Shown here piece after piece: positions 6,105 to 19,093 of a stretch of 64,000 bases of DNA. A model generated the notes under the pieces. The model saw only the letters and a list, made by a program, of their open reading frames with translations, was not told the DNA's origin and did no database searches. The DNA is from Paenisporosarcina antarctica (GTDB lineage Bacteria > Bacillota > Bacilli > Bacillales_A > Planococcaceae). The DNA is taken from assembly GCF_004367585.1 (NCBI RefSeq), contig NZ_CP038015.1, positions 1,556,001 through 1,620,000 on the forward strand, read 5' to 3'. Position 1 is the stretch's first letter. The number at the start of each line of letters is the position of its first letter. Both the position numbers and the translations under genes were made by a program.

Positions 6105-9100
6105 ATGGACGTACCTTTACTGAAGTCAAAAATCGTTCCACCCGTAACCAGTGAAACGTATATGCGTAGGGCTTCTTTAACGCGCACATTTAAACAAATC
6201 TCTTCAAAAAAATGTGCGTTGATTTCAGGTGGAGCAGGATATGGAAAAAGTTCTGCTATTGCTCAATTTATCGCGGATAGTAGAATTAATTGTTCGTGGT
6301 ACACCGTGTCATCTGAAGATGATGATTTGGTTCCGTTTTTAAGATACTTAATCGGTAGCATTCAACGTATCGTTCCTAGTTTTGGGCAACAATTGCTGAA
6401 GGATTTGTCTATTCAACCTTCATTTACTAGTGATAAAGAATTAATAACTTGGCATGCATGGTTTGTAAGTGAGCTAGATCAAATCGCTGAACCTTTAGTA
6501 ATTGTCATTGATGATTATCATTTAATCGATCATGTTTTCTCTATCAATTTTATGGTGGAGAGAATTTTAGAACACTGTCCATCATATGTACATATTGTTT
6601 TGATTTCTCGATCAAAACCTAAATGGACACAGTTATTAAAGCTAAAAATGAATGGACAATTAGTAGAAGTGAATGAAAAAGACTTGGTTTTTACAGAAGA
6701 GGAAATAATTGTTTATTTTGAAGATTATTTTGATCGTCATTTAACAGAAAAAGAATCCAAGTACATTTCGGAAATTACAGAAGGTTGGGCAATTGCTATT
6801 CAATTAATGGCAGTTAAATCTGTAAGTGAAGATAGTAGTTTTAATATTTCTCTAAAACCAGCTATGGAAGATTTATTTCATTATTTGTCCGAAGAAGTAT
6901 TTACTAGATATAAAGAAGAAGAGCAAAGTTGGCTCATGCAATTTTCAGTTTTCCCGACATTTTCTCTGAAATTCATTCAGTTATTTTTTGGTAAGGAAGC
7001 TGTTCACTTCTTACAATCGTTCCGTAATCAACACGGCTTCATTCAACAATTAGGTGAAGGTTCGGTTTTTCGGTATCACGCATTATTTCAACAATATTTA
7101 ATTACTAAATGGAAACACACTAATCTAGTAGAATTTCAAAAGGCACATAAATTAGCTGCAGAACATTTTGAACAGAAAAGCGATTCTATTCGTTTAATTT
7201 ATCATGCACTTCAAAGTAAAGATGTTCATTTTATCACTCAAATTGTCTTGAAAGCTGTGCCTAAGTTATTAAAATTAGGGCAATTTGATTTAATTATAGA
7301 TAGTTTAAAAGAGATTCCTCAAAGTTATTTTGACGAGTATCCAGCACTTTATTACTTTGAAGGAGAAGCTAATCGGTATCTGGCATATTATGAAAAATCA
7401 AAACAAGCCTATCAAAAAAGTTTATTATTAGCTACAGCTAAAAAAGATGCTTTTTATACGAGTTATGCACATGCAGGGCTTGCGCATATCTATTTAGATA
7501 CGATTCAGCCAGGTTTAGCTGATCCGCATTTAGCGAATGCCATATCTTTTGCGAATCAAACGGATGCCATGTCACAGAAAGATATGAGCAATTTAAAGCG
7601 ACAATTTGCAGAAAACCTCGTGAATTTAGGAAAAACAAAAGAAGCAAAAGCTTTTATTGAAGATGAACAATTACCAGAGACTTTATTAATCAATGGTAAT
7701 TTAGATGCACGAATATTATTAAGGATGGGAAAATTATCTGACTCACTTCAATTATTAGAAAATCGCTTGAGAGAAGAAGATATGGTGCCAGACTCACATC
7801 GTGAAACGGCTGTTCTATTAGCTTTACTTAATGCAATGATAGGCAATCTTTCTCGGGCTAGTTACTATGCAACTAAAGGGATTGAAAGTGGAATCAGAGA
7901 AAAATCCAAATTTGTAGAAGCCGTTGGATTGATTAGAAAAGGTCATGCGGAAAGTATAGATCGACATCATTTTTTAGATTCTCCTGATTCTGAGCGTATG
8001 TACCTACAAGCAATCGAAAAAATGGATCAACTGAATGTATCAAGGGGAAAAGCAGAACCGTATTTAGGGTTAGCGCTTTTAAAAGCTAAACAAGGATTAC
8101 AATATGAAGCGTTGATTCTTGCAGAAAAGGGATTAATAGAAACTGAACGTGTTCAAGATGCCTGGTTATCTGCATTTATAAAAATTGGCATAACAATGAT
8201 TTATTGTACATTTCATCAGTATGATCAGGCGAGTAGCTATGCAAAACAAGCAAAAGTTGACTTTACTTTATGTGGAGATTCATTTGGTAAAATGGTTTCT
8301 TCGTTTTGGTTGAGTATTTGTGCATTTGAATTAGAAGACAAAGAACTATTTACACAAGAAATCAAACAGTTTGCTCATATACTTTTGGGAGAACAGTATA
8401 TATTTTTTATTGAAAAAATAACAATGTATGGACCGTTTGATATTCAACAATTCTACCCGCTAATTCAGTATGCGATGAAGAACTGTCCTGATAATGAAGA
8501 AATTCATCGCATAGGTCAACATTTACAAGTAGAGCAACATGTTATTTACCCGGGTTATACTTTACATGTTCAATTACTAGGTCCAATATCTATTTCTTTA
8601 GGTAGAGAGGAAGTAGAAGATCGTAAATGGCAACGTGAAAAAGCAAAAGATTTATTTGTATATTTATTTATCCATAAAAATAGATTTGTTCCAAAAGAGG
8701 AACTGGTGAGTGAACTATTTGGTGGTCAGGATGAAAAGACTGCTGTTCGAGATTTCAAGGTGGCACTTAATGCACTGTATAATGTACTCGAACCAAAAAG
8801 ATTTCCTCGTGCGGAATCTTATTTTATCATTCGTAAACAAACAATGTATCGAATTCATCCTAAAGCAGCAATCGTTAGTGATGTCGAAAAATTTCAACAG
8901 CTAGTTGCTCAAGGATTAGATGAACGAAATCCACAACTGGCTAGTGCATTATTAAAATCAGCTATAGCTTTGTATAGAGGAACTTATTATTTAAATCAAA
9001 ATGTTTACAATTGGTTTCAATTTGAGCAAGACCATTTTCACCAAATTTATTTACAAGTTATTGAAAAGTTAGCTCAGAATGCTACTAGACTCCAGCAATT

Positions 9101-9320
9101 CGAGCAAACCATTTACTGGGCTGAAAAATTAATAAAATTGGATTATACATGGGAAGAAGCATACCGTCTTTTAATGTACGCGTACTATCAAAAAAACAAT
9201 AGATCACAAGCGATTAAGTGGTATGAAAAATGTGTGCAAATGCTCTTAGAAGAGTATGAATTGAAACCCATGGAAACGACAGAACGAATGTTTGAACTGA
9301 TTGCTAATGGATATGCCTAA
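6105..9320 (+). CDS. STAND ATPase/TPR/SARP-type transcriptional activator
   Basis: This is a giant (1071-residue) regulator. Residues about 1-240 form a MalT-like STAND NTPase, with Walker A SGGAGYGKSS (residues 41-50), Walker B VIVIDDYH near 135-142 and the sensor VLISRSKP. Residues about 350-780 are helical, TPR-like repeats suited to sensing a ligand or partner. The C-terminal about 250 residues hold an OmpR-type winged helix (LLGPISISLGREEVEDRKW ... AVRDFKVALNALYNVL) and then a BTAD domain, the architecture of Streptomyces SARPs. The start ATG follows GAGAGGG. The gene has its own promoter and terminator and points into the liv-type operon, so it is inferred to activate that operon. The effector is unknown, possibly a CoA ester or the transported substrate. 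Confidence 0.88.
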   Translation: MDVPLLKSKIVPPVTSETYMRRASLTRTFKQISSKKCALISGGAGYGKSSAIAQFIADSRINCSWYTVSSEDDDLVPFLRYLIGSIQRIVPSFGQQLLKDLSIQPSFTSDKELITWHAWFVSELDQIAEPLVIVIDDYHLIDHVFSINFMVERILEHCPSYVHIVLISRSKPKWTQLLKLKMNGQLVEVNEKDLVFTEEEIIVYFEDYFDRHLTEKESKYISEITEGWAIAIQLMAVKSVSEDSSFNISLKPAMEDLFHYLSEEVFTRYKEEEQSWLMQFSVFPTFSLKFIQLFFGKEAVHFLQSFRNQHGFIQQLGEGSVFRYHALFQQYLITKWKHTNLVEFQKAHKLAAEHFEQKSDSIRLIYHALQSKDVHFITQIVLKAVPKLLKLGQFDLIIDSLKEIPQSYFDEYPALYYFEGEANRYLAYYEKSKQAYQKSLLLATAKKDAFYTSYAHAGLAHIYLDTIQPGLADPHLANAISFANQTDAMSQKDMSNLKRQFAENLVNLGKTKEAKAFIEDEQLPETLLINGNLDARILLRMGKLSDSLQLLENRLREEDMVPDSHRETAVLLALLNAMIGNLSRASYYATKGIESGIREKSKFVEAVGLIRKGHAESIDRHHFLDSPDSERMYLQAIEKMDQLNVSRGKAEPYLGLALLKAKQGLQYEALILAEKGLIETERVQDAWLSAFIKIGITMIYCTFHQYDQASSYAKQAKVDFTLCGDSFGKMVSSFWLSICAFELEDKELFTQEIKQFAHILLGEQYIFFIEKITMYGPFDIQQFYPLIQYAMKNCPDNEEIHRIGQHLQVEQHVIYPGYTLHVQLLGPISISLGREEVEDRKWQREKAKDLFVYLFIHKNRFVPKEELVSELFGGQDEKTAVRDFKVALNALYNVLEPKRFPRAESYFIIRKQTMYRIHPKAAIVSDVEKFQQLVAQGLDERNPQLASALLKSAIALYRGTYYLNQNVYNWFQFEQDHFHQIYLQVIEKLAQNATRLQQFEQTIYWAEKLIKLDYTWEEAYRLLMYAYYQKNNRSQAIKWYEKCVQMLLEEYELKPMETTERMFELIANGYA

Positions 9321-9352
9321 CCTGTTTCGAGTAAATCTCGATACAGGTATTT
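9321..9352 (+). terminator. Terminator of the regulator gene
   Basis: CCTGTTTCGAG-TAAAT-CTCGATACAGG forms an 11-bp stem with one mismatch, followed by TATTTTTATATTT. It starts immediately after the stop codon and separates the regulator from the transport operon. Confidence 0.8.
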
Positions 9353-9365
9353 TTATATTTCTAAA

Positions 9366-9399
9366 TTGTAACTCATTTGTAACTAAGGTTTTATATGAT
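9366..9399 (+). promoter_or_regulatory. Candidate SARP operator and -10 of the transport operon
   Basis: Two identical octamers TTGTAACT (9366-9373 and 9377-9384) repeat with an 11-bp period. The heptamer TTGTAAC of the second copy ends 10 bp before the -10-like TATGAT (9394-9399). SARP regulators are known to bind heptamer direct repeats of 11-bp period just upstream of the -10. The regulator encoded next door ends in a SARP domain, so this is its likely binding site (inference). Confidence 0.5.
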
Positions 9400-9410
9400 A
9401 AAAACGAAAC

Positions 9411-9426
9411 AAGTAATCGCTTACAA
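9411..9426 (+). promoter_or_regulatory. cre-like site (CcpA) downstream of the transport-operon -10
   Basis: AAGTAATCGCTTACAA matches the cre consensus TGWNANCGNTNWCA at 13 of 14 positions; the exception is A for the first T. It lies just after the -10, where CcpA would block transcription, implying glucose repression of the operon. Confidence 0.45.
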
Positions 9427-9452
9427 AAAGTACAAAGAGGAAGGGGATTTTC

Positions 9453-10694
9453 ATGAAAAGAAAGGCATGGTTTTTTCTGTTTTTAGCTTTCGTATTAATC
9501 ATTAGTTCTGCTTGTACAAACTCAGACACTACAGAGGACACCAAAGACAACGAAGGGAAGGTTCCAGTAAGCGGTACTGGGGAAGAAGGGGGCACTATTA
9601 AGATTGGCGTGTTAGCCTCTTTAACTGGAGCCTTAGAATCTTATGGTAAACAAACACAACGTGGTTTTGATTTAGGGATAGAATTCGCTACAGATGGAAC
9701 TATGGAAGTAGCAGGCAAAAAAATTGAAATTGTTTATGAAGACACTGAAACGAAACCAGAAGTAGCTGTTCAAAAAGCGACTAAGCTACTAGAAGACGAT
9801 GAAGTGGATTTTCTTGTAGGATCTTCTAGTTCTGGTGATACGTTAGCGGTCTTACCACTAGCAGAAGAATATGAAACAATTATGGTAGTTGAACCAGCAG
9901 TTGCTGACAGTATTACAGGAGCTGAATTTAACCCGTATATTTTCCGTACATCACGAAACTCATCACAGGATGCAGTTGCTGGAGCTGCGGCAATTGCAAA
10001 ATCAGGTGTTAAAATTGCAACGTTTGCACCTGACTATTCATTTGGTTTAGATGGAGTTGCAGCGTTTAAAAAAGCAGCAGAAAAATTAGGTGCTGAAATT
10101 GTTTTAGAAGAGTATGCAGACCCAGCGGCAACAGATTTCACCTCCAACTTACAAAAAGTGATTCAAGCAAAACCGGATTATTTGTTTGTCGTTTGGGCAG
10201 GAGCAAACTCACCTTGGAATCAAATAGCAGATTTAAAAATTCAAGAAAAAGGCATAAAAATTTCAACAGGTGCTCCTGATATCCCAGCTCTATCGACCAT
10301 GGAGCCTTTAGTTGGCATGGAAGGATTTTCTGTTTATTACCATACATTACCAGATAACAATGTGAATGATTGGTTAGTAGAAAAACATAAAGAAAAGTTT
10401 AACGGGGAAGTTCCCGACTTATTCACTCCAGGAGGAATGTCAGCTGCAATATCAATTATAGAAGCATTAAAGAAATCTGAAGGAAATGCAGATGGTAATG
10501 AATTAATCGGAATTATGGAAGGGATGTCTTTTGACACACCGAAAGGAACCATGACGTTCCGTGAAGATGATCATCAGGCTTTACAAACGTTGTACTCCAT
10601 TAAACTTGAAAAACAAGAAGGTATTGATTATCCCGTGCCGGTGTTAATTCGCGAATTATCACCGGAAGAAACAGAACCACCAATTCAAAATTAA
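9453..10694 (+). CDS. Branched-chain-amino-acid-type substrate-binding lipoprotein
   Basis: This is the extracellular solute receptor of a HAAT-family ABC importer (Peripla_BP_6/LivJ type, 413 residues). A signal peptide with basic MKRK and a hydrophobic core ends at the lipobox-like ISSAC (Cys21), followed by an acidic, Thr-rich linker. The mature domain starts IKIGVLASLTGALESYGKQ, the usual LivJ opening, and includes the KIATFAPDYSFGLDG region. Family members bind leucine-like amino acids, but many bind amides, aromatic acids or other organic acids. The neighbouring acyl-CoA ligase points to a carboxylic acid or ester here (inference). It is the first gene of an operon that runs to at least 17564. 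The start follows AGAGGAAGGGG. Confidence 0.9.
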   Translation: MKRKAWFFLFLAFVLIISSACTNSDTTEDTKDNEGKVPVSGTGEEGGTIKIGVLASLTGALESYGKQTQRGFDLGIEFATDGTMEVAGKKIEIVYEDTETKPEVAVQKATKLLEDDEVDFLVGSSSSGDTLAVLPLAEEYETIMVVEPAVADSITGAEFNPYIFRTSRNSSQDAVAGAAAIAKSGVKIATFAPDYSFGLDGVAAFKKAAEKLGAEIVLEEYADPAATDFTSNLQKVIQAKPDYLFVVWAGANSPWNQIADLKIQEKGIKISTGAPDIPALSTMEPLVGMEGFSVYYHTLPDNNVNDWLVEKHKEKFNGEVPDLFTPGGMSAAISIIEALKKSEGNADGNELIGIMEGMSFDTPKGTMTFREDDHQALQTLYSIKLEKQEGIDYPVPVLIRELSPEETEPPIQN

Positions 10695-10788
10695 ACTACT
10701 GAGACGGCCTGTTCATTCAGGTCTGTCTCTCTCCATGTGTGAGAACCAGTCTTGTGTATGGAGAGAGACAGAAGAAAGGATGAAACCC

Positions 10789-11562
10789 ATGACAACGATA
10801 TTAAAAACTGAAAACTTAACCATTCGTTTTGGTGGACATATAGCTGTAGATCACATAAATTTCGAAATGCCAGAAAATCAATTCAAATCAATTATTGGAC
10901 CAAATGGAGCTGGAAAGACCACTTTCTTTAATTTAATTAGTGGAGAATTAAAACCAACTGAAGGTAAAGTTTATTTTAAAGATGAAGATATGATCCGTTT
11001 TTCTTCTGTTGACCGCACGCGAAAAGGGTTGGGTCGTTCATTTCAAATTACGAATGTGTTCCCTAATTTAAGCGTGTTAGAAAATGTGCGTATAGCTGTA
11101 CAGTCCAAAGAAAAAATTCGCTACCAAATGATACGTCATATTTCAAAGTACACATCTCTTAGTCAAAAGGCTGAAGAGTTGCTAGGACTTGTTCGACTCT
11201 ATTCAAAAAAACATGTAATTGCAAGTCAATTATCTCATGGGGAAAAACGCAAACTTGAGATTGCGATGTTACTAGCTTTAGACACGGAAGTTTTATTGTT
11301 AGATGAACCGACAGCAGGGATGTCACTCGAAGAAGTTCCCGCAATATTGGAAGTCATTAGACGGATAAAGGAACAAGGAAATAAAACAATTCTATTGATT
11401 GAACACAAAATGGATATGATTTTAGATTTATCGGATTCCATTATGGTGCTGTTTAATGGCAAGGTTTTAGCAGACGGAACCCCGATAGAAATTATGCAAA
11501 ATGAAATGGTTCAAAATGCTTATTTAGGAGGATTATACGATGAGCACATTGCTAAAAGTTGA
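10789..11562 (+). CDS. HAAT-family ABC transporter ATPase (LivG-like)
   Basis: This is one of the two cytoplasmic ATPases of the importer (257 residues). Walker A is GPNGAGKTT (residues 37-45), the signature is LSHGEK near 148-153 and Walker B is VLLLDEPTAG near 168-177. The signature has H where LSGGE is usual, an otherwise conservative change. The long insert with LENVRIAVQ is typical of LivG. The frame is open from 10735, but only the ATG at 10789 has a well-spaced site (GAAAGGA), so the 18 extra residues are dropped. The gene overlaps the LivF-like gene by 23 bases, which suggests translational coupling. Confidence 0.9.
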   Translation: MTTILKTENLTIRFGGHIAVDHINFEMPENQFKSIIGPNGAGKTTFFNLISGELKPTEGKVYFKDEDMIRFSSVDRTRKGLGRSFQITNVFPNLSVLENVRIAVQSKEKIRYQMIRHISKYTSLSQKAEELLGLVRLYSKKHVIASQLSHGEKRKLEIAMLLALDTEVLLLDEPTAGMSLEEVPAILEVIRRIKEQGNKTILLIEHKMDMILDLSDSIMVLFNGKVLADGTPIEIMQNEMVQNAYLGGLYDEHIAKS

Positions 11563-12247
11563 GGACGTTCACACCTATATTGGACAATATCATATTTTGC
11601 AGGGGGTAAACTTTCAAGCAAATGAAGGAGAGGTCAGTGTATTACTTGGTCGTAATGGTGCAGGGAAAACAACCACACTTAAAACAATATTAGGTTTAAC
11701 ACCCGCTACCAAAGGACGTGTTGCCTTTAAGGGACAAGAGATTACAAAAAAACAAACTCACGTGATAGCAAACAATGGAATTGGCTATGTTCCAGAAGAT
11801 CAAGGCATTTTTGCCACATTGACAGTTGAAGAAAATATGAAAGTGGCTATGCGTACTGAAGATGAAAAAACTATAGGGAAGCAGGACTATGTATTAGATT
11901 TATTTCCAGATTTAAAAATATTTTGGAAAAAAGATGGTGGTCTATTATCAGGCGGACAAAAACAAATGTTAGCTATGGCACGCGCCTTTGTAGGAAACAA
12001 TCAACTTCTTTTAATAGATGAACCTTCAAAAGGGCTTGCACCTATTGTAATAGAAAAAGTGATGGAAGCCATTATTGACATGAAAAAACATACAACCATC
12101 GTATTGGTCGAACAAAATTTTATGATGGCAAGCCGAATTGGTGATACATATACACTCTTAGATGATGGTGAAACCGTCCAATCGGGATTGATGCAAGACT
12201 TAATACAAGATGAACAAATAAAGCGTAAATATTTAGGGATAGGATAA
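11540..12247 (+). CDS. HAAT-family ABC transporter ATPase (LivF-like)
   Basis: This is the second ATPase of the importer (235 residues, LivF length). Walker A is GRNGAGKTT (residues 37-45), then the GIGYVPEDQGIFATLTVEENM segment characteristic of LivF, the signature LSGGQKQ and Walker B LLLIDEPSKGLAP. The start ATG lies inside the 3' end of the LivG-like gene, 8 bases after TAGGAGG. It pairs with the LivG-like subunit to energise the two permeases that follow. Confidence 0.9.
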   Translation: MSTLLKVEDVHTYIGQYHILQGVNFQANEGEVSVLLGRNGAGKTTTLKTILGLTPATKGRVAFKGQEITKKQTHVIANNGIGYVPEDQGIFATLTVEENMKVAMRTEDEKTIGKQDYVLDLFPDLKIFWKKDGGLLSGGQKQMLAMARAFVGNNQLLLIDEPSKGLAPIVIEKVMEAIIDMKKHTTIVLVEQNFMMASRIGDTYTLLDDGETVQSGLMQDLIQDEQIKRKYLGIG

Positions 12248-12259
12248 GGAGGTACAGTA

Positions 12260-13120
12260 ATGGAACTACTCATGAATTTGACCATAAATGGGCTAGCCAC
12301 CGGTATGTTAATCTTCCTTTTAGCTGCCGGGTTAACGTTGATTTTTGGATTGATGGACGTACTTAACTTTGCACATGGTGGATTATTTGCATGGGGCGCA
12401 TTTTCTTCAGTTTGGTTTTATTCACTTACGGAAAGCTTTGTACTTGCTATTCTTGGCGCTATTCTAACGGGTATCATCCTGGGATTTATTACAGAAAAGC
12501 TAATTATCAAACCCGTATATGGCAATCACGTCCAACAAATATTAATCACATTAGGTTTTATGCTCGTGTTAACAGAAATGTTAAAAGTCGTTTTTGGTCC
12601 AAATCAAATTGCTGCCAAAACCCCAGCTTACTTTGCAGGTAGCTGGGAAATCGGGGACGTAATTATTATTAAATACCGTGTGTTCATTATCGTTGTAGGT
12701 TTCCTTGTGTTCGGTATTGTTCAATATATTTTAAAGAAAACGAAAGTTGGTTTAATCGTTCGTGCAGGTGTAATGAATAAGGAAATGGTTCAAACACTCG
12801 GTATTAATATAAATAATGTATTTCTATATGTATTTATTGCTGGAGCAGTATTGGCTTCTCTCGGTGGTGCTTTAATGGCACCATACTCAGGTGTAATATA
12901 CGCAGAAATGGGAATGGAATTTGCCATATTAGGATTCATTGTCGTCGTAATAGGAGGGATGGGAAGTTTTCCAGGATCCTTGCTAGCAGCAATTTTAGTG
13001 GGTTTAACAGGAAGCTATATGGCTTACTACGTTCCTTCCCTATCGTTAGCAGTAAACATGTTGATTATGGCGATTGTATTAATTTTCCGACCGCAAGGAT
13101 TATTTAGAGTAAAGGGGTGA
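12260..13120 (+). CDS. HAAT-family ABC permease (LivH-like)
   Basis: This is a membrane subunit of the importer (286 residues, about eight transmembrane segments). It opens with NGLATGMLIFLLAAGLTLIFGLMDVLNFAHGG, the LivH hallmark, and contains the cytoplasmic coupling loop around VGLIVRAGVMNKEMVQTLGIN. The C-terminal part reads GGMGSFPGSLLAAILVGL, also typical. The start follows AAGGAGG 13 bp after the LivF-like stop codon. It forms a heterodimer with the next gene product. Confidence 0.9.
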   Translation: MELLMNLTINGLATGMLIFLLAAGLTLIFGLMDVLNFAHGGLFAWGAFSSVWFYSLTESFVLAILGAILTGIILGFITEKLIIKPVYGNHVQQILITLGFMLVLTEMLKVVFGPNQIAAKTPAYFAGSWEIGDVIIIKYRVFIIVVGFLVFGIVQYILKKTKVGLIVRAGVMNKEMVQTLGININNVFLYVFIAGAVLASLGGALMAPYSGVIYAEMGMEFAILGFIVVVIGGMGSFPGSLLAAILVGLTGSYMAYYVPSLSLAVNMLIMAIVLIFRPQGLFRVKG

Positions 13121-13124
13121 AGAG

Positions 13125-14123
13125 ATGACTACAAAATATCAATGGAACAATATTTTCCTAACCATTATTGTCATTGTGTTGTTCATCTTCCCTTTTGTTA
13201 CAGACTCAAGGACTTGGACAATACTTTTAACACAAATTTTCATTTTTTCGATTCTAGCAATGAGTTATGACATTTTACTAGGATATACAGGTATTGTGTC
13301 ATTTGGTCACGCGATGTTTTTCGGAATTGGTGCGTATACCACAGGAGTAATGCTAGATCGCGTAGAGCCAACGATAGGTGTTTTTATTTTATCAATTGTC
13401 ACAGGCATGATCATTGCAGGCATTATTAGCTTTATTGTGGGTTTATTGACTTTACGCTTAAAGAGTCATTTTTACGCTATGTTAACACTTGCTCTATCAG
13501 GATTATTTTTAGTTCTTACTGAAAAATGGCGTAGTTTAACTTCAGGGAATGACGGTTTTACGTTCCGGGCACCAGAAGTTTTTAAAGATCGTGCGGTGTT
13601 CTATCTAGTCGTACTAGTGTGTTTAGTTGTGACCTATATTTTACTTAGACGATTTGTTCAATCCCCACTTGGTCACATATTAGTAGCAGTCCGTGAAAAT
13701 GAGCAACGAACAAAATCATTAGGTTTCAAAGTGCTACATTACAAAGTGATTGCATCAGTTGTGGCTGGTGTTGTGGCGAGTTTAGCAGGAGCACTCTATG
13801 CAATAAGTTTACGATTTGTAAATACCAGCGTCTTGACGATGGATATTACATTAGATGCCTTATTAATGACAATCATTGGCGGTGTTGGAACACTTATTGG
13901 ACCTATAATAGGCGCTGGGGTAATAGAGTTATCGCAACACTATTTGTCAGGACTTGCAAAAGAATATCCTATTTTTGAACGTTGGATTATTTTCTTTGGA
14001 ATTCTCTATATTTTAGTGGTAATTTTCTTTCCGGCAGGTATTGTCGGAACGATACGACAAGCTTATTATAAAAGAAAAAAACCACATGTAGTAGAAGGTC
14101 GATCTAACTCGGAGGATTTATAA
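13125..14123 (+). CDS. HAAT-family ABC permease (LivM-like)
   Basis: This is the second membrane subunit (332 residues). Hallmarks are LLGYTGIVSFGHAMFFGIGAY, the RLKSHFYAMLTLALSGLF stretch and the coupling loop QSPLGHILVAVRENEQRTKSLGF. It ends with a basic cytoplasmic tail after FFPAGIVGTIRQAYYK. Its stop codon overlaps the start of the KASIII-like gene (TAATG), tying transporter and enzymes into one transcript. A decayed second copy of its last about 60 codons is recognisable 3.5 kb downstream. Confidence 0.9.
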   Translation: MTTKYQWNNIFLTIIVIVLFIFPFVTDSRTWTILLTQIFIFSILAMSYDILLGYTGIVSFGHAMFFGIGAYTTGVMLDRVEPTIGVFILSIVTGMIIAGIISFIVGLLTLRLKSHFYAMLTLALSGLFLVLTEKWRSLTSGNDGFTFRAPEVFKDRAVFYLVVLVCLVVTYILLRRFVQSPLGHILVAVRENEQRTKSLGFKVLHYKVIASVVAGVVASLAGALYAISLRFVNTSVLTMDITLDALLMTIIGGVGTLIGPIIGAGVIELSQHYLSGLAKEYPIFERWIIFFGILYILVVIFFPAGIVGTIRQAYYKRKKPHVVEGRSNSEDL

Positions 14124-15127
14124 TGCATATTGGAATCGCTAGTACTGGTGTATATATCCCTTCACAATTCATGTCGGCGGAAGAAATTTCATCTTCTTCT
14201 GGAATACCATTACATGTTGTCAAGAACAAAATGGGGATCACAAAAAAAACCATTCCTGGACCTAATGATCATACTGTTCAAATGGCTATATGGGCAGCTC
14301 AAAATGCACTTGTAAGAGGTCGAATTGACCCGAAATCAATCGATTGTATCATTTATATTGGTGAAGAGCATAAAGAATACCCTTTATGGACTGCAGCAAT
14401 TAAAATTCAAGAAGAAATTGGTGCTTTTCACGCATGGGGTTTTGATGTTTCACTTAGATGTAGTACAACAATTTTAGCTTTGAAGTTAGCAAAAAGCTTA
14501 ATGTTATCTGATGATTCAATAGAGACAGTACTTTTAACAGGTGGTTATCGAAACGGAGATTTTATTGATTATTCAAATGAACGAACACGGTTCATGTTTA
14601 ATCTTGGTGCTGGTGGAGCTGCAATAGTTTTGAAAAAAAATCATGGTGAGAATATAGTTCTTGAATCAGACATTATGACAGATGGATCGTTTTCTGAAGA
14701 TGTTGTTGTTCCGGTAGGGGGCACAAAAACCCCATTAACAGGAGAGTTATTAGCTTCAGGTGCATATAAACTTGATGTTTTAGATCCTAATGGTATGAAA
14801 AAGCGATTGGAACTAAAATCTATGCAAAATTTTCTACAAGTTATTAGACATTCGTTGGTAAAGAGTGGGTTTTCAGAACCAGATATTTCATACCTAGCTA
14901 TACTTCACATGAAAAAATCAGCACATGACTTCGTATTACATGAACTTGGATTATTGGAAGATCAGTCAATATATTTACATGAATATGGACATATTGGCCA
15001 ACTAGATCAAATCATTTCTTTACATCTAGCAGAGCAAAATGGAAAACTTCAAAAAGGAGACATCGTTGTATTAGTTAGCGCGGGTATCGGTTATGCCTGG
15101 GGAGCTACAACAATAAATTGGGGATAA
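14123..15127 (+). CDS. 3-oxoacyl-ACP synthase III (FabH/thiolase-fold)-like enzyme
   Basis: This 334-residue thiolase-fold protein resembles FabH. The nucleophile is Cys113 in FDVSLRCSTT, where FabH has DLSAAC. The catalytic His is His262 in LAILHMKKSAHD. Where FabH has Asn in GNTSAAS, this protein has His290 in EYGHIGQL, so the triad reads Cys-His-His, as in KAS I/II, rather than Cys-His-Asn. The C-terminal GDIVVLVSAGIGYAWGATTI strand is FabH-like. Since it sits between an importer and an acyl-CoA ligase, a catabolic, thiolase-like or CoA-condensing role is more likely than lipid synthesis (inference). The start overlaps the LivM-like stop codon, after GGAGG. Confidence 0.82.
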   Translation: MHIGIASTGVYIPSQFMSAEEISSSSGIPLHVVKNKMGITKKTIPGPNDHTVQMAIWAAQNALVRGRIDPKSIDCIIYIGEEHKEYPLWTAAIKIQEEIGAFHAWGFDVSLRCSTTILALKLAKSLMLSDDSIETVLLTGGYRNGDFIDYSNERTRFMFNLGAGGAAIVLKKNHGENIVLESDIMTDGSFSEDVVVPVGGTKTPLTGELLASGAYKLDVLDPNGMKKRLELKSMQNFLQVIRHSLVKSGFSEPDISYLAILHMKKSAHDFVLHELGLLEDQSIYLHEYGHIGQLDQIISLHLAEQNGKLQKGDIVVLVSAGIGYAWGATTINWG

Positions 15128-15145
15128 AAATAGGGAGGAATTCAC

Positions 15146-16027
15146 ATGACGTTGCAAAAAGTGTTACTAAGTAACGGGGAAACTATTTCTTATCGTGAAC
15201 GGGATGGTGGAGAACAAGTGATTGTGCTCGTTCATGGAAATATGACATCTTCCAAGCACTGGGATATCTTGATTGATGAATTAGATTCGAAATACAAATT
15301 GTATGCACTCGACTTAAGAGGTTTTGGGGAATCGAGTTATCATACTCGTGTTCAAGGAATTGAAGACTTTGCTCATGACTTAAAAGGTTTTGTCGATGCT
15401 TTAGGACTTGATGCATTTCATTTAGTAGGCTGGTCAACTGGTGGTGCAGTTTGCATGCAATTTGTTGTTGAATATCCTGGTATGTGCAAAAAGCTTGTCC
15501 TTCTGGCATCAGCATCCACTCGAGGGTATCCATTCTATGGAACGAACGCAAATGGAACGCCCGACATGCAAAGACGTCTACAAACAATTGAAGAAGTTGA
15601 AAATGATGCAAAAACAAAAGCCATTCAATGGTTATATGATACAAACAATCGTGAGGGATTAAAATCGGTTTGGAATGCGTTAATTTATACACATAAACAA
15701 CCAGATGAAACAAAATATGAAGAATATGTAACGGATATGTTAACACAACGGAATTTGGCGGATGTTTATTATTCGTTGAATAGGTTTAATATAAGCGGCA
15801 TTCATAATGGATTAATTGAAGGGTCAAACAAAGCTAAAAATATATTAATACCGGTATTAGTTTTAAGAGGAGATCGGGATTTTGTGATTTCTCAACAAAT
15901 GACGCTCGAAATAGTTGAGGACCTTAGAAATGTTGCGACATATATTCCGTTAATAAATTCAGGTCATTCCCCACTTATTGACGATTTGTTACAACTAACA
16001 CAACAAATTGAAACGTTTTTAGGGTAG
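15146..16027 (+). CDS. Alpha/beta-fold hydrolase
   Basis: This 293-residue enzyme is probably a cytoplasmic esterase or lactonase (no signal peptide). The oxyanion-hole strand is LVHGNMTSSKHWD, the nucleophile elbow GWSTGG carries Ser97, the acid is D243 or D245 in LRGDRDFV, and the catalytic His is H274 in NSGHSPL. A helical cap lies between about residues 125 and 220. The start follows AGGGAGG, 19 bp after the KASIII-like gene. The substrate is unknown; hydrolysis of an imported ester to an acid that the next enzyme activates would fit (inference). Pieces of a second copy are seen just before the SDR gene. Confidence 0.85.
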   Translation: MTLQKVLLSNGETISYRERDGGEQVIVLVHGNMTSSKHWDILIDELDSKYKLYALDLRGFGESSYHTRVQGIEDFAHDLKGFVDALGLDAFHLVGWSTGGAVCMQFVVEYPGMCKKLVLLASASTRGYPFYGTNANGTPDMQRRLQTIEEVENDAKTKAIQWLYDTNNREGLKSVWNALIYTHKQPDETKYEEYVTDMLTQRNLADVYYSLNRFNISGIHNGLIEGSNKAKNILIPVLVLRGDRDFVISQQMTLEIVEDLRNVATYIPLINSGHSPLIDDLLQLTQQIETFLG

Positions 16028-16082
16028 TAGATTAAGTGGTAGATTATGGTTAAATGATGTGAAACAGGAAGGAGGGGAACCA

Positions 16083-17564
16083 ATGTATAACGATCAAACC
16101 TGGTTTTTAAAACGTGCAAAAATGGTCCCTTCTCACCTAGCGTGTATAGATATCAATAGTGGTCAGCAATGGACGTATGCTCAATTTACAAATTTAATTA
16201 AAGAATGGGTCCATCGGTTATCGCTTGAACAGTTGAAACAAGGTGACCGAGTTGCAATTCTTGCTAACAATCACCCAGAGTTACTCGCCATTTTATTCGC
16301 ATGTGGATTGAAAGGTTATATATACGTACCCTTAAATTTCCGTTTAAGTCTAATCGAACTGACAGAGATTCTTACTAATTGTGAACCAGCCATTCTAATT
16401 ACTGATTATTCTTATGAAGAGCTTATATACTCATTGCCTGTTAAAAAGATGCTAAACCGTGAAGTGCGACTAGAAGGGAAATCATTTATTAATGAGTCAA
16501 TTCAAGTGACATCTATTTCTGCTGATGAACCATGGATGATAATCTACACAGGAGGCACGACAGGTAAATCTAAAGGTGTACAACTTTCTTATAACAACGT
16601 AAATTGGAATGCAATGAATACCATTGTAAGCTGGGGGCTTTCTGATAGAGATTGCACGGTTACATATATGCCTTTATTTCATACCGGAGGTCTAAACGCA
16701 CTTTCAATCCCTATATTAATGGCGGGTGGCACAGTAGTCATTGGTGACCGATTCGATGGGAAGCAAGCGATAGAGGAAATAATTAAACGTAAAGCCACTA
16801 TTTCATTGTTTGTACCGACAATGTATCAAGTGATGACGCAAACAGAGACATTCAAAAATAGTGATTTTCCAAACGTAAAAGTTTTTTTATCTGGTGGTGC
16901 TCCATGTCCTTTTACTATATATGAACAATTTGAAAAAAAAGGATTACCCTTTAAAGAAGGCTATGGTCTTACGGAAGCGGGTCCTAATAATTTTGTGATT
17001 GATGTAGATGCTGTAAAGTTTAAGAAAGGTTCAGTAGGTAAGAATATGCAATTTGTAGATACGTTAATTGTTTCAGTAATGAATAAACCGACTGCTATTA
17101 ATGAGGTTGGTGAACTCTGGATTCGCGGTAAACATGTATTTACAGGTTATTGGCGAAATGAAAAGGAAACAGCCGATGTCATGAATGACGAGTGGTTAAA
17201 AACGGGAGATTTAGCAAAAATGGATGCTGAAGGCGACTATTATATTGTTGGAAGAAAGAAAGATATGATTGTGACGGGTGGAGAAAATGTGTATCCTCAA
17301 GAAATCGAGCATTGCTTAATCCAACATAGAATGATTAGAGAGGCAGCAGTTATTGGACTTCCTGATGAGAAATGGGGGGAAGTTGTTACTGCATTTATTT
17401 CTCTTACAGAACCTGCTTCGTATTCAGAAAAACAATTAATTGACCATTGTCGTCAGTATTTAGGTGGCTACAAAGTCCCGAAGGCATTTGTTATAGTAGA
17501 AGAATTACCTAAAACACATGTTGGAAAGATAGATAAAAAAAAATTGCTTTACTTAAAACCTTAG
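16083..17564 (+). CDS. AMP-dependent acyl-CoA ligase
   Basis: This class I adenylate-forming enzyme (493 residues) is expected to activate a carboxylic acid to its CoA thioester. The P-loop IYTGGTTGKSKG lies at residues 154-165, followed by GYGLTEAGPN, the hinge region GRKKDMIVTGGENVYPQE and the catalytic Lys482 in HVGKIDKKK. ATG 16083 is chosen because GGAAGGAGGGG lies just upstream; an upstream GTG at 16059 has no site. Specificity (fatty, aromatic or hydroxy acid) cannot be read by eye. It is the last intact gene before the decayed duplication. Confidence 0.9.
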   Translation: MYNDQTWFLKRAKMVPSHLACIDINSGQQWTYAQFTNLIKEWVHRLSLEQLKQGDRVAILANNHPELLAILFACGLKGYIYVPLNFRLSLIELTEILTNCEPAILITDYSYEELIYSLPVKKMLNREVRLEGKSFINESIQVTSISADEPWMIIYTGGTTGKSKGVQLSYNNVNWNAMNTIVSWGLSDRDCTVTYMPLFHTGGLNALSIPILMAGGTVVIGDRFDGKQAIEEIIKRKATISLFVPTMYQVMTQTETFKNSDFPNVKVFLSGGAPCPFTIYEQFEKKGLPFKEGYGLTEAGPNNFVIDVDAVKFKKGSVGKNMQFVDTLIVSVMNKPTAINEVGELWIRGKHVFTGYWRNEKETADVMNDEWLKTGDLAKMDAEGDYYIVGRKKDMIVTGGENVYPQEIEHCLIQHRMIREAAVIGLPDEKWGEVVTAFISLTEPASYSEKQLIDHCRQYLGGYKVPKAFVIVEELPKTHVGKIDKKKLLYLKP

Positions 17565-17589
17565 GTGGCAAGGCATTACTCAAGGTTTT
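17555..17589 (+). terminator. Weak hairpin at the end of the ligase gene
   Basis: AAAACCTT and AAGGTTTT pair across a 19-base loop and are followed by TTCAA. The stem overlaps the ligase stop codon. It is a weak terminator at best; the SDR gene may still be reached by read-through. Confidence 0.3.
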
Positions 17590-17634
17590 TCAATACAAAC
17601 TTCAAAATCATGGATTAAATGTATATTTTCTAAT

Positions 17635-18050
17635 GAATTATGGCAGATTGTACTTGGGGTAGTTTTTTTGCTAAGGAAGTATTCTCCATTTTTAGAAACT
17701 TAGCGTTAATATTTTCTCAATATTTAGTTTTCAGCACTAATTTCCTTTCCTTCGGGAATTTTTGGAACGATTCGATAAGCTTTTCATAAAATGAAGATAA
17801 TACGTGTGGTAGAAATGAACAATCAAATTGAGAGAAATACGATAATAATACCGTTACACAAAAGGAGACAATGTCTTATGAGTTAGGAAGACTATAGGTT
17901 ATGCTTAGTGAGCAATAGTAATTAATTGGGTTTATAAATACGAGTATTTATATGACGATAAACCAATTTCTTATCTTGAACGCTATGGTGTAGGCTGCTT
18001 AATGATGATTTATCACAGCTAACACATCGAATTGATGAATTATATATAGG
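17635..18050 (+). pseudogene. Decayed second copy of the livM-KAS-hydrolase junction
   Basis: This gene-free stretch is a fossil duplication. Bases 17731-17823 read LISFPSGIFGTIR-stop-AFHK, matching VIFFPAGIVGTIRQAYYK at the LivM-like C-terminus. Weaker similarity to the preceding LivM residues goes back to about 17635. Bases 17858-17940 align with the last about 80 bases of the KASIII-like gene (AAAGGAGACA, GGTTATGC and AATTGGG are shared). An ATGACG at 17952 corresponds to the hydrolase start, followed by PISYLERYG (compare TISYRERDG). Finally NDDLSQLTHRIDEL at 18001-18042 matches the hydrolase C-terminus IDDLLQLTQQIETF. The interiors of both enzyme genes are deleted, and stops and frame changes occur throughout. 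The copy abuts the SDR ribosome binding site. Confidence 0.75.
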
Positions 18051-18060
18051 GGGTCATTTT

Positions 18061-18801
18061 TTGCGTTTACAAAATCAAGTTGCCATTATTACCGGGAGTG
18101 CAAATGGCATTGGATATGCAGCGGTCGAACGTTTTGCAGAAGAGGGAGCTCAAGTCATTCTTGCTGATTATGATGAAGTAACGGGGACAGAAGCTGCTAA
18201 ACAGTTAAAAGAAAAAGGATATGACGTGACATTTATACACGTAAATGTAGCAGATCGGGAAAGTGTACAACAATTAATTGGTCAAACGGTTAAAACGTAT
18301 GGCGGTATTGATATTTTGGTCAATAATGCAGGTATTACAAGAGATGCAATGTTATCTAAAATGGACCCTGCTGATTTTCAGTTTGTATTAGATGTCAATG
18401 TAAACGGTGTCTTTAACTGTACACAAATTGTACTGCCACACTTAATTGAAAAAGGAAAAGGGAAAATTATTAATACTTCTTCCATAAGTGGTGTATATGG
18501 AAATGTAGGACAAACGAATTATGCTGCCTCAAAAGCTGCTGTGATTGGTATGACTAAGTCATGGGCAAAAGAGTTGGGTCGAAAAGGTATTAATGTTAAT
18601 GCAGTCGCCCCAGGATTTACCCGTACTTCAATGGTGGAAAAAATGCCTGATAAAGTTATTCAACAAATGACGTCAATCATCTCTTTGCAACGATTAGCTT
18701 TGCCAAAAGATATTGCAAATGCCTACTTATTTCTAGCATCATCAGAATCAGATTATGTGCATGGTCACGTCCTTCATGTTGACGGAGGAATAATGATGTA
18801 A
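18061..18801 (+). CDS. Short-chain dehydrogenase/reductase (FabG-like)
   Basis: This 246-residue classical SDR resembles 3-oxoacyl-ACP/CoA reductases. The cofactor motif is TGSANGIG (11-18), with NNAG near 88-91, and the catalytic Ser141, Tyr154 and Lys158 lie in the NTSSISG and NYAASK motifs. D36 at the end of beta-2 (LADYDE) suggests NAD(H) preference, as in dehydrogenation of 3-hydroxyacyl-CoA (inference). The start is TTG 18061, seven bases after AGGGGG; no ATG is nearby. It probably belonged to the transport operon but now sits behind a decayed duplication. Its own promoter is not obvious. Confidence 0.88.
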   Translation: MRLQNQVAIITGSANGIGYAAVERFAEEGAQVILADYDEVTGTEAAKQLKEKGYDVTFIHVNVADRESVQQLIGQTVKTYGGIDILVNNAGITRDAMLSKMDPADFQFVLDVNVNGVFNCTQIVLPHLIEKGKGKIINTSSISGVYGNVGQTNYAASKAAVIGMTKSWAKELGRKGINVNAVAPGFTRTSMVEKMPDKVIQQMTSIISLQRLALPKDIANAYLFLASSESDYVHGHVLHVDGGIMM

Positions 18802-19093
18802 GAAATGATGGCAGGAAGGGTACATTTGTATAATGGTCAATCTTCATTGTTAAATTGGACCTTCTCTCCAAAGCTATTTGTATAGCTAGTGATCGAAATG
18901 AACCTATGCTCAATTATCACATCTAATTGAAGATATGAATGAACTCCATACATACTCGATATATGCCAAAATTCTAACCCGAGTTGTTCTTCCACAAGAG
19001 ATAATATTCATTAATAAGCAACTACTCGTAGCTATAATTTCAAGAACTGCTTTTTCTTGTTCAATTTTGTATAATGGACGAGAGGTGAGCAAG
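18802..19093. other. Gene-free spacer before yneP
   Basis: There is no credible gene in these 292 bases. The frame at 18910-18954 reads AQLSHLIEDMNELH, faintly similar to the C-terminus of the alpha/beta hydrolase, so this may be another relic, but the match is too short to be sure. The frame open into yneP from 18935 has no ribosome binding site. Confidence 0.35.

Follow-up and report, generated by a model that had tools for sequence, protein, structure and literature searches.

A SARP-domain regulator, a recurrent direct-repeat box and a Liv-type import operon in Bacillales with a probable role in scavenging external polyhydroxybutyrate

We analyzed a 64,000-nucleotide stretch of the Paenisporosarcina antarctica genome (hereafter the window; G000:C1:1556001-1620000 of a 3.97-Mb genome on two contigs; family Planococcaceae, genus Paenisporosarcina), which carries the gene of a regulator with a SARP-type domain next to an operon encoding an importer and acyl-CoA enzymes. 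All ten open reading frames described in an initial annotation of this DNA were found where it had placed them, on the + strand, in the order regulator, substrate-binding protein (SBP), LivG, LivF, LivH, LivM, ketoacyl synthase-like enzyme (KAS), PhaZ-like hydrolase, ligase and short-chain dehydrogenase/reductase (SDR). Searches of the ten proteins against Pfam and NCBIfam matched a MalT-like NTPase with a C-terminal BTAD domain, Peripla_BP_6, two ABC ATPases, two BPD_transp_2 permeases, a KASIII-type enzyme (NF005308), an alpha/beta hydrolase, an AMP-binding ligase and an SDR, and, as originally claimed, neither an acyl-CoA dehydrogenase nor an enoyl hydratase was found among them. The regulator had been described as a STAND/TPR/SARP protein; the MalT-like NTPase and BTAD matches bear out two parts of that label, while a Pfam TPR match was absent, and the middle of the protein may be called TPR-like by analogy with MalT. 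Coordinates of all features are collected in Table 1.

The ten-gene set is co-conserved far beyond chance. Our family set comprised 261 genomes, including that of the window, of which 93 were carriers, defined by a KAS family (NF005308) match above cut-off. The 99 family regions that we examined consisted of 92 first-copy and seven second-copy loci; in G190 the first-copy region also contains the second copy. Summed tblastn bits show the complete set in 86 of the 92 other family loci centered on KAS. A second, named set held 80 of the 245 relatives found, and 42 of the 80 match a family locus exactly in their KAS DNA; the set is complete in 69 of these 80 and in 32 of the 38 that do not overlap the family set, which come from genera such as Rossellomorea, Cytobacillus, Neobacillus, Mesobacillus, Fredinandcohnia, Alkalihalobacillus and Heyndrickxia. 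The initial annotation had proposed looking for the same genes in other Bacillales, and there the enzymes and the transporter do travel together. Genera differ in the flanking genes while the ten stay grouped, with most Lysinibacillus loci having one to a few genes between regulator and SBP. One of the 86, G190 (L133), has the regulator in pieces only and an SDR that runs past the end of the region, and at L077 the regulator and SDR were each matched as two pieces. All six incomplete family loci lack the regulator and three also lack the SBP; five of these regions end at a contig edge, yet L101 is full-length. Among the named loci with flanks of full length, the regulator is absent from L209 and L265 and the SDR from L220; both genes are missing from L228 (20,136 bases). 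We came across no homologous operon to which an amino-acid role had been assigned, though no search was aimed at one.

Between the regulator and SBP genes of the window lies a direct repeat, TGTAACT-N4-TGTAACT, with the hexamer TATGAT 9 nt further 3'. This is the single exact match in the window (at up to three mismatches there are 10 matches versus 8.3 expected by chance), and the pattern read one base earlier also has a single exact match in the whole genome. The box is present upstream of SBP with at most two mismatches in 89 of 89 family regions (no mismatch in 69, one in 14, two in six), these being the 93 carrier genomes minus three with the SBP outside the stretch and minus G190, which was grouped with the mini-clusters described below. 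In all 89 a TANNNT hexamer stands precisely 9 nt 3' of the box. Seven other repeat spacings and mononucleotide shuffles, with the heptamer taken one base earlier, gave no comparable matches. Among the named loci, 75 of the 76 that have an SBP carry the box at up to two mismatches, the other four of the 80 lacking the SBP.

Genome-wide, the box is almost private to the regulator-operon system. The exact pattern TGTAACTNNTTTGTAACT occurs at 76 places in 70 of the 261 family genomes, versus 5 for the reversed control, and in 69 of 93 carriers versus 1 of 168 non-carriers (Fisher p 4e-41, uncorrected for phylogeny). By position, 69 of the 76 places are at the operon, one is at a variant locus in G127, five precede an esterase gene in g13 (Psychrobacillus) and one lies by nrdE. 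The G127 locus (L153), in the sole box-bearing non-carrier, has the order regulator-box-PhaZ-SDR-ligase; with neither KAS nor transporter, it reduces the regulon to a minimal form. The nrdE case, an exact box by a ribonucleotide reductase gene in Lysinibacillus G055 (L152:4240), is either a chance match or an unexplained extra target. In a further 37 Bacillales genomes, chosen by way of the named loci, the exact pattern TGTAACTNNNNTGTAACT was found in 34, at 55 places versus 3 for the control; of the 30 places that were read, 15 precede the ligase, 14 the SBP and one a polyhydroxybutyrate (PHB) depolymerase. The 80 named loci contain 85 exact boxes, of which 62 precede the SBP and 23 the ligase, with no others.

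The five additional boxes, in five Psychrobacillus genomes, connect the system to PHB. Each precedes a gene for an Esterase_PHB protein of 586-623 residues with PF10503 at 124-131 bits (cut-off 23), CHB_HEX_C_1 and Fn3_assoc domains and, by eye, a signal-peptide-like N-terminus. PF10503 scores above cut-off in 11 of the 261 family genomes and at least 127 bits in six, all of which are carriers (Fisher p 0.0018); in the other five the match itself scores 20-25 bits. The 37 further genomes added five more strong PF10503 proteins of 587-687 residues, with G269 contributing two shorter proteins of 347 residues and G287 a weak match. In total, 10 of 11 secreted-type PF10503 depolymerases, from five genera, are preceded by the box at up to one mismatch (none in six cases, one in four), and 3000 random 400-bp sequences of 37% GC contained zero matches at that level. 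The six other PF10503 matches that were scanned (L168-L170, L271-L273) had no box at up to three mismatches. Finally, in Alkalihalobacterium elongatum (L243) a depolymerase gene lies within the operon itself, between SDR and ligase, and near-boxes with 1, 1 and 2 mismatches precede SBP, depolymerase and ligase, respectively.

Table 1. Positions in the window of the regulator gene, the operon and the associated sites.
Feature	Position	Strand	Basis
Regulator, 1071 aa; MalT-like STAND NTPase, helical middle, winged helix/BTAD	6105..9320	+	Pfam/NCBIfam; AlphaFold model of C-terminus
Putative SARP box, TGTAACT-N4-TGTAACT, 11-bp register	9367..9384	+	Pattern scan
Putative -10 hexamer TATGAT, 9 nt 3' of box	9394..9399	+	Sequence; spacing kept in relatives
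cre-like (CcpA) site, 1 mismatch to the consensus used	9411..9426	.	Pattern scan
SBP, Peripla_BP_6, LivK/HAAT type; lipoprotein-like N-terminus by eye	9453..10694	+	Pfam
LivG-type ATPase	10735..11562	+	Pfam/NCBIfam
LivF-type ATPase	11540..12247	+	Pfam/NCBIfam
LivH-type permease	12260..13120	+	Pfam/NCBIfam
LivM-type permease	13125..14123	+	Pfam/NCBIfam
KASIII-fold enzyme, family NF005308 (PRK06840); Cys113-His262-His290	14123..15127	+	NCBIfam; structure comparison
PhaZ-like intracellular short-chain-length polyhydroxyalkanoate (scl-PHA) depolymerase/oligomer hydrolase; Ser97-Asp245-His274	15146..16027	+	NF050089
Acyl-CoA ligase (AMP-binding); true start probably 16083	16059..17564	+	Pfam/NCBIfam
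Non-coding gap with decayed KAS-region pieces	17565..18060	+	blastn
FabG/PhaB-like SDR; Asp36, Tyr154, Lys158	18061..18801	+	Pfam/NCBIfam

SARP-type regulators are known mainly from antibiotic-making actinomycetes. Residues 5-416 of the regulator match the MalT model at 214 bits, short of the 537-bit cut-off, and the C-terminus scores 74 bits with BTAD (PF03704; cut-off 22). An AlphaFold model of the last 255 residues (mean predicted local distance difference test score, pLDDT, 92.5) has AfsR (8k60, 8hvr) and EmbR (2ff4, 2fez) as its six top PDB matches, at a template-modeling (TM) score of ~0.83 and across nearly the entire piece, and predicts an OmpR-type winged helix directly before the BTAD domain. 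At the level of sequence, Pfam Trans_reg_C was matched in L153 alone and below cut-off (20.6 versus 26.2), and a PDB sequence search with the C-terminus returned TPR proteins only. According to PMC10936776, the direct repeats of SARP promoters are spaced at 11 or 22 bp and the distance between the 3' repeat and the -10 element is 8 bp, and in AfsR the NOD and TPR modules inhibit the SARP domain, an inhibition that ATP binding can relieve. The operon promoter has repeats in an 11-bp register, with 9 nt from box to TANNNT. AfsR of Streptomyces coelicolor, a large SARP, thus shares with our regulator the SARP fold, an NTPase module and 11-bp direct repeats just upstream of the -10 element. However, the SARP domain of AfsR is N-terminal, whereas ours is C-terminal, behind a MalT-like N-terminus, in a Bacillales host and with catabolic targets; because of this placement we call the protein a SARP-domain activator and not AfsR-type by architecture. 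The MalT-type STAND activators resemble it in the NTPase match and, by analogy, would suggest an inducer-gated activator of a catabolic regulon, but the DNA-binding module of MalT is LuxR-type. Box conservation, promoter geometry, specificity for carriers and the AfsR/EmbR-like fold strongly support the earlier proposal of SARP control over a catabolic operon, and we infer that the regulator binds the box.

A cre-like site with at most two mismatches follows the box in 75 of the 89 loci, versus 25 of 1780 shuffles, and CcpA probably represses the promoter through it. Autoregulation through the same box was not supported, since a match with up to two mismatches was found upstream of the regulator in just 1 of 83 loci. 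At L133 (G190), where the regulator is in pieces and a TetR mini-cluster lies directly upstream, there is no box before the SBP, which suggests a joint loss of regulator and box in this genome. Scans for promoters and terminators at the locus gave results no better than shuffles.

The enzymes fit a pathway for 3-hydroxybutyrate. The hydrolase belongs to the intracellular scl-PHA depolymerases (NF050089, 442 bits, cut-off 300), its nearest solved chains (8ynv/8ynw) are named poly(3-hydroxybutyrate) depolymerase, and its Ser97-Asp245-His274 triad is the same in every one of the 92 family and 80 named loci (these sets overlap); no signal peptide was seen by eye. It resembles the intracellular PHB depolymerase PhaZ of Bacillus, in which family match and intact triad agree, but here it sits in an import operon, mostly without polyhydroxyalkanoate (PHA) synthase. 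That Bacillus enzyme was reportedly described by Tseng in 2006. Asp36, Tyr154 and Lys158 of the SDR are kept in 90 of 90 family and 76 of 76 named sequences, short or missing copies being left out, and an Asp at the position of residue 36 marks the NAD type. KAS scores 516 bits with NF005308 (cut-off 315), and its Cys113-His262-His290 are identical in the same 92 family and 80 named loci (130 distinct sequences, the sets overlapping); the model has a FabH-like fold, but in the alignment the third place of the triad is His where FabH, with Cys-His-Asn, has Asn. Eight strong Thiolase_N matches in the P. antarctica genome mean that KAS need not be the thiolase. It accompanies the ligase, and mostly an SBP, in mini-clusters and is missing along with the transporter in G127, which hints that its role is tied to the imported compound. 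The importer shares the five-gene HAAT architecture of the branched-chain amino acid importer LivKGFHM but is set among PHB-type genes, and among the matches listed all five of its proteins stay under the curated cut-offs for Liv and urea transporters (for example, 193 versus 362 bits with the LivG model). The nearest solved relatives of the SBP, 3n0x and 3nnd, carry a general name only.

The mini-clusters are paralogous loci of a different make-up. Second-copy loci L133-L138 (e.g., L134:5742-10540) have the order TetR-ligase-MaoC-KAS-SBP and no permeases, and in G190 such a mini-cluster is fused upstream of the main operon. Five aligned KAS copies of this type have Ser at the Cys113 column, and in the five mini-clusters measured (L133, L134, L135, L136 and L138, with L137 outside the measurement) the best box match has 5-6 mismatches. 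In addition, a ligase-KAS pair lies between regulator and SBP at L232 and L250-L252, and stands without an SBP at L139 and L140 (Ureibacillus G233 and G243); the KAS of L139, the one of these two that was aligned, has Ser at the Cys113 column.

Gene order at the 3' end of the operon differs between the window, with KAS-PhaZ-ligase-gap-SDR, and its relatives, with KAS-PhaZ-SDR-ligase. By blastn, the gap is 80% identical over 93 bp to the sequence that in relatives lies just before KAS and 73% identical over 81 bp to window positions 15052-15132, the 3' end of KAS. These pieces may be what remains of a tandem duplication, later partly lost, through which the SDR came to lie behind the ligase. 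Neither the gap nor the region before the ligase in the window contains a box (best matches with 6 and 5 mismatches, respectively). The ligase probably starts at the later position given in Table 1, because ligases of relatives begin MY. An aconitase gene upstream and a 4HBT thioesterase gene downstream flank the ten genes, and both are near the site in relatives, in rearranged form. The thioesterase, at 18935, was considered as a pathway member and dropped: together with the next gene, it sits upstream of the regulator, by aconitase, in L061 and L086.

Taken together, we consider it probable (about 0.74) that this is a SARP regulon for scavenging external PHB as 3-hydroxybutyrate and its oligomers, which would enter through the Liv-type importer, be activated with CoA and then be oxidized and cleaved. 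The release of 3-hydroxybutyrate and oligomers would be the work of secreted PF10503 depolymerases, produced by the cell itself in some relatives and by other organisms elsewhere; after import, the PhaZ-like hydrolase would cut the oligomers in the cytosol, the ligase would form (R)-3-hydroxybutyryl-CoA, the NAD-type SDR would oxidize this to acetoacetyl-CoA, and a housekeeping thiolase or the KAS-like enzyme would yield acetyl-CoA. The STAND-SARP regulator, gated by nucleotide and inducer, would bind the TGTAACT repeats beside the -10 element and activate the promoter, and CcpA would repress it through the cre site. The initial annotation had read the operon as importing a 3-hydroxy acid or its ester, followed by hydrolysis, CoA activation, oxidation by the SDR and cleavage by KAS acting as a thiolase. 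All but the last of these steps agree with the depolymerase family, the shared box, the in-operon depolymerase and the SDR residues; the earlier interpretation is thus partly supported, with the proposed substrate now 3-hydroxybutyrate and PHB oligomers. Amino-acid import was dropped as the principal interpretation since the box ties the operon to PHB depolymerases, and granule mobilization since PHA synthase shows no co-occurrence.

Mobilization of the cell's own PHB granules, with the transporter recovering leaked 3-hydroxybutyrate, nevertheless has points in its favor: the hydrolase family takes its name from intracellular depolymerases, the P. antarctica genome has a PHA synthase match (TIGR01836, G000:C1:1752868) and, according to PMC4908106, deletions of phaC and phaZ altered PHB content in B. 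thuringiensis. However, PHA synthase (TIGR01836 above cut-off), present in 38 of the 261 family genomes, occurs in 13 of 93 carriers versus 25 of 168 non-carriers (Fisher p = 1), which argues against a role mainly in own granules, and the box is shared between the operon and a depolymerase of secreted type. We therefore regard this explanation as unlikely, although the synthase match makes a double role possible in the P. antarctica genome. Liv/HAAT importers serve many ligands, and the more distant solved relatives of the SBP include 4ey3 and 4f06, which we take to be aromatic-acid binders. This would suit an importer for another carboxylate (a branched-chain, aromatic or hydroxy acid) with the PHB link as a side role of a broader regulon, as would the mini-clusters, which join the same kind of SBP to ligase, MaoC and KAS without PhaZ. 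Such a regulon is nonetheless quite improbable, since every placed exact box, with the sole exception of that by nrdE, precedes SBP, ligase, PhaZ or PHB depolymerase.

OmpR-type regulators also use 11-bp direct repeats, and the box could be the site of a housekeeping regulator of this type (PhoP-like) instead of the neighboring SARP; the operons at L209 and L265, which keep the box with no regulator gene nearby, would be explained in this way. A housekeeping site would, however, be expected at many genes and in non-carriers, whereas the only non-carrier with an exact box has the regulator, and the P. antarctica genome contains one exact and three one-mismatch matches versus five for the reversed control. 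We consider a housekeeping site very improbable.

Several observations weigh against the scavenging of external PHB. The gene and box counts come from related genomes and are hence not independent events. The KAS step is unexplained, given the Cys-His-His triad, the KAS-less variant in G127 and the eight thiolases, and nothing ties the SBP itself to 3-hydroxybutyrate. The L262 operon has no box in the 169 bp available upstream of its SBP, and L209 and L265 (the latter from the same genome as L101) have no regulator gene in the stretch examined; their regulator may lie elsewhere in the genome. Only six of the 261 family genomes have a strong PF10503 depolymerase and there is no match at all in the P. 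antarctica genome, so the majority of carriers would depend on scavenging or on depolymerases of another type; the Lysinibacillus odysseyi depolymerase (L166) is the one of the 11 without a box. Finally, Bacillus sp. NRRL B-14911 has an extracellular PHB depolymerase of similar size (63 kDa; Ma 2011), which a review table lists as releasing monomers (degree of polymerization 1, DP1); this weakens the need for oligomer import.

A stronger version of the scavenging proposal, which we offer as tentative and rather doubtful, is that a dedicated polyester-scavenging regulon exists in Bacillales, its C-terminal-SARP activator governing both a secreted PHB depolymerase and an importer that would be the first of the ABC type for 3-hydroxybutyrate oligomers, with the Cys-His-His KASIII-fold enzyme working as a reverse, degradative thiolase. 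Among the literature matches listed there was no SARP-controlled PHB regulon and no ABC importer of 3-hydroxybutyrate oligomers, a weak negative as subscription papers are mostly uncovered. The available portions of two reviews mention assimilation or use of the products and name no transporter, the word 'transporter' having 0 occurrences in their main texts.

The scavenging of external PHB would assign a likely substrate, a regulator and a DNA box to genes that in many Bacillales would otherwise pass for an amino-acid transport operon, and it provides a candidate importer for PHB oligomers. It would also mean that SARP-type activation has moved from the control of antibiotics in actinomycetes into catabolism, and it predicts how these bacteria may sense and import the breakdown products of a bioplastic.

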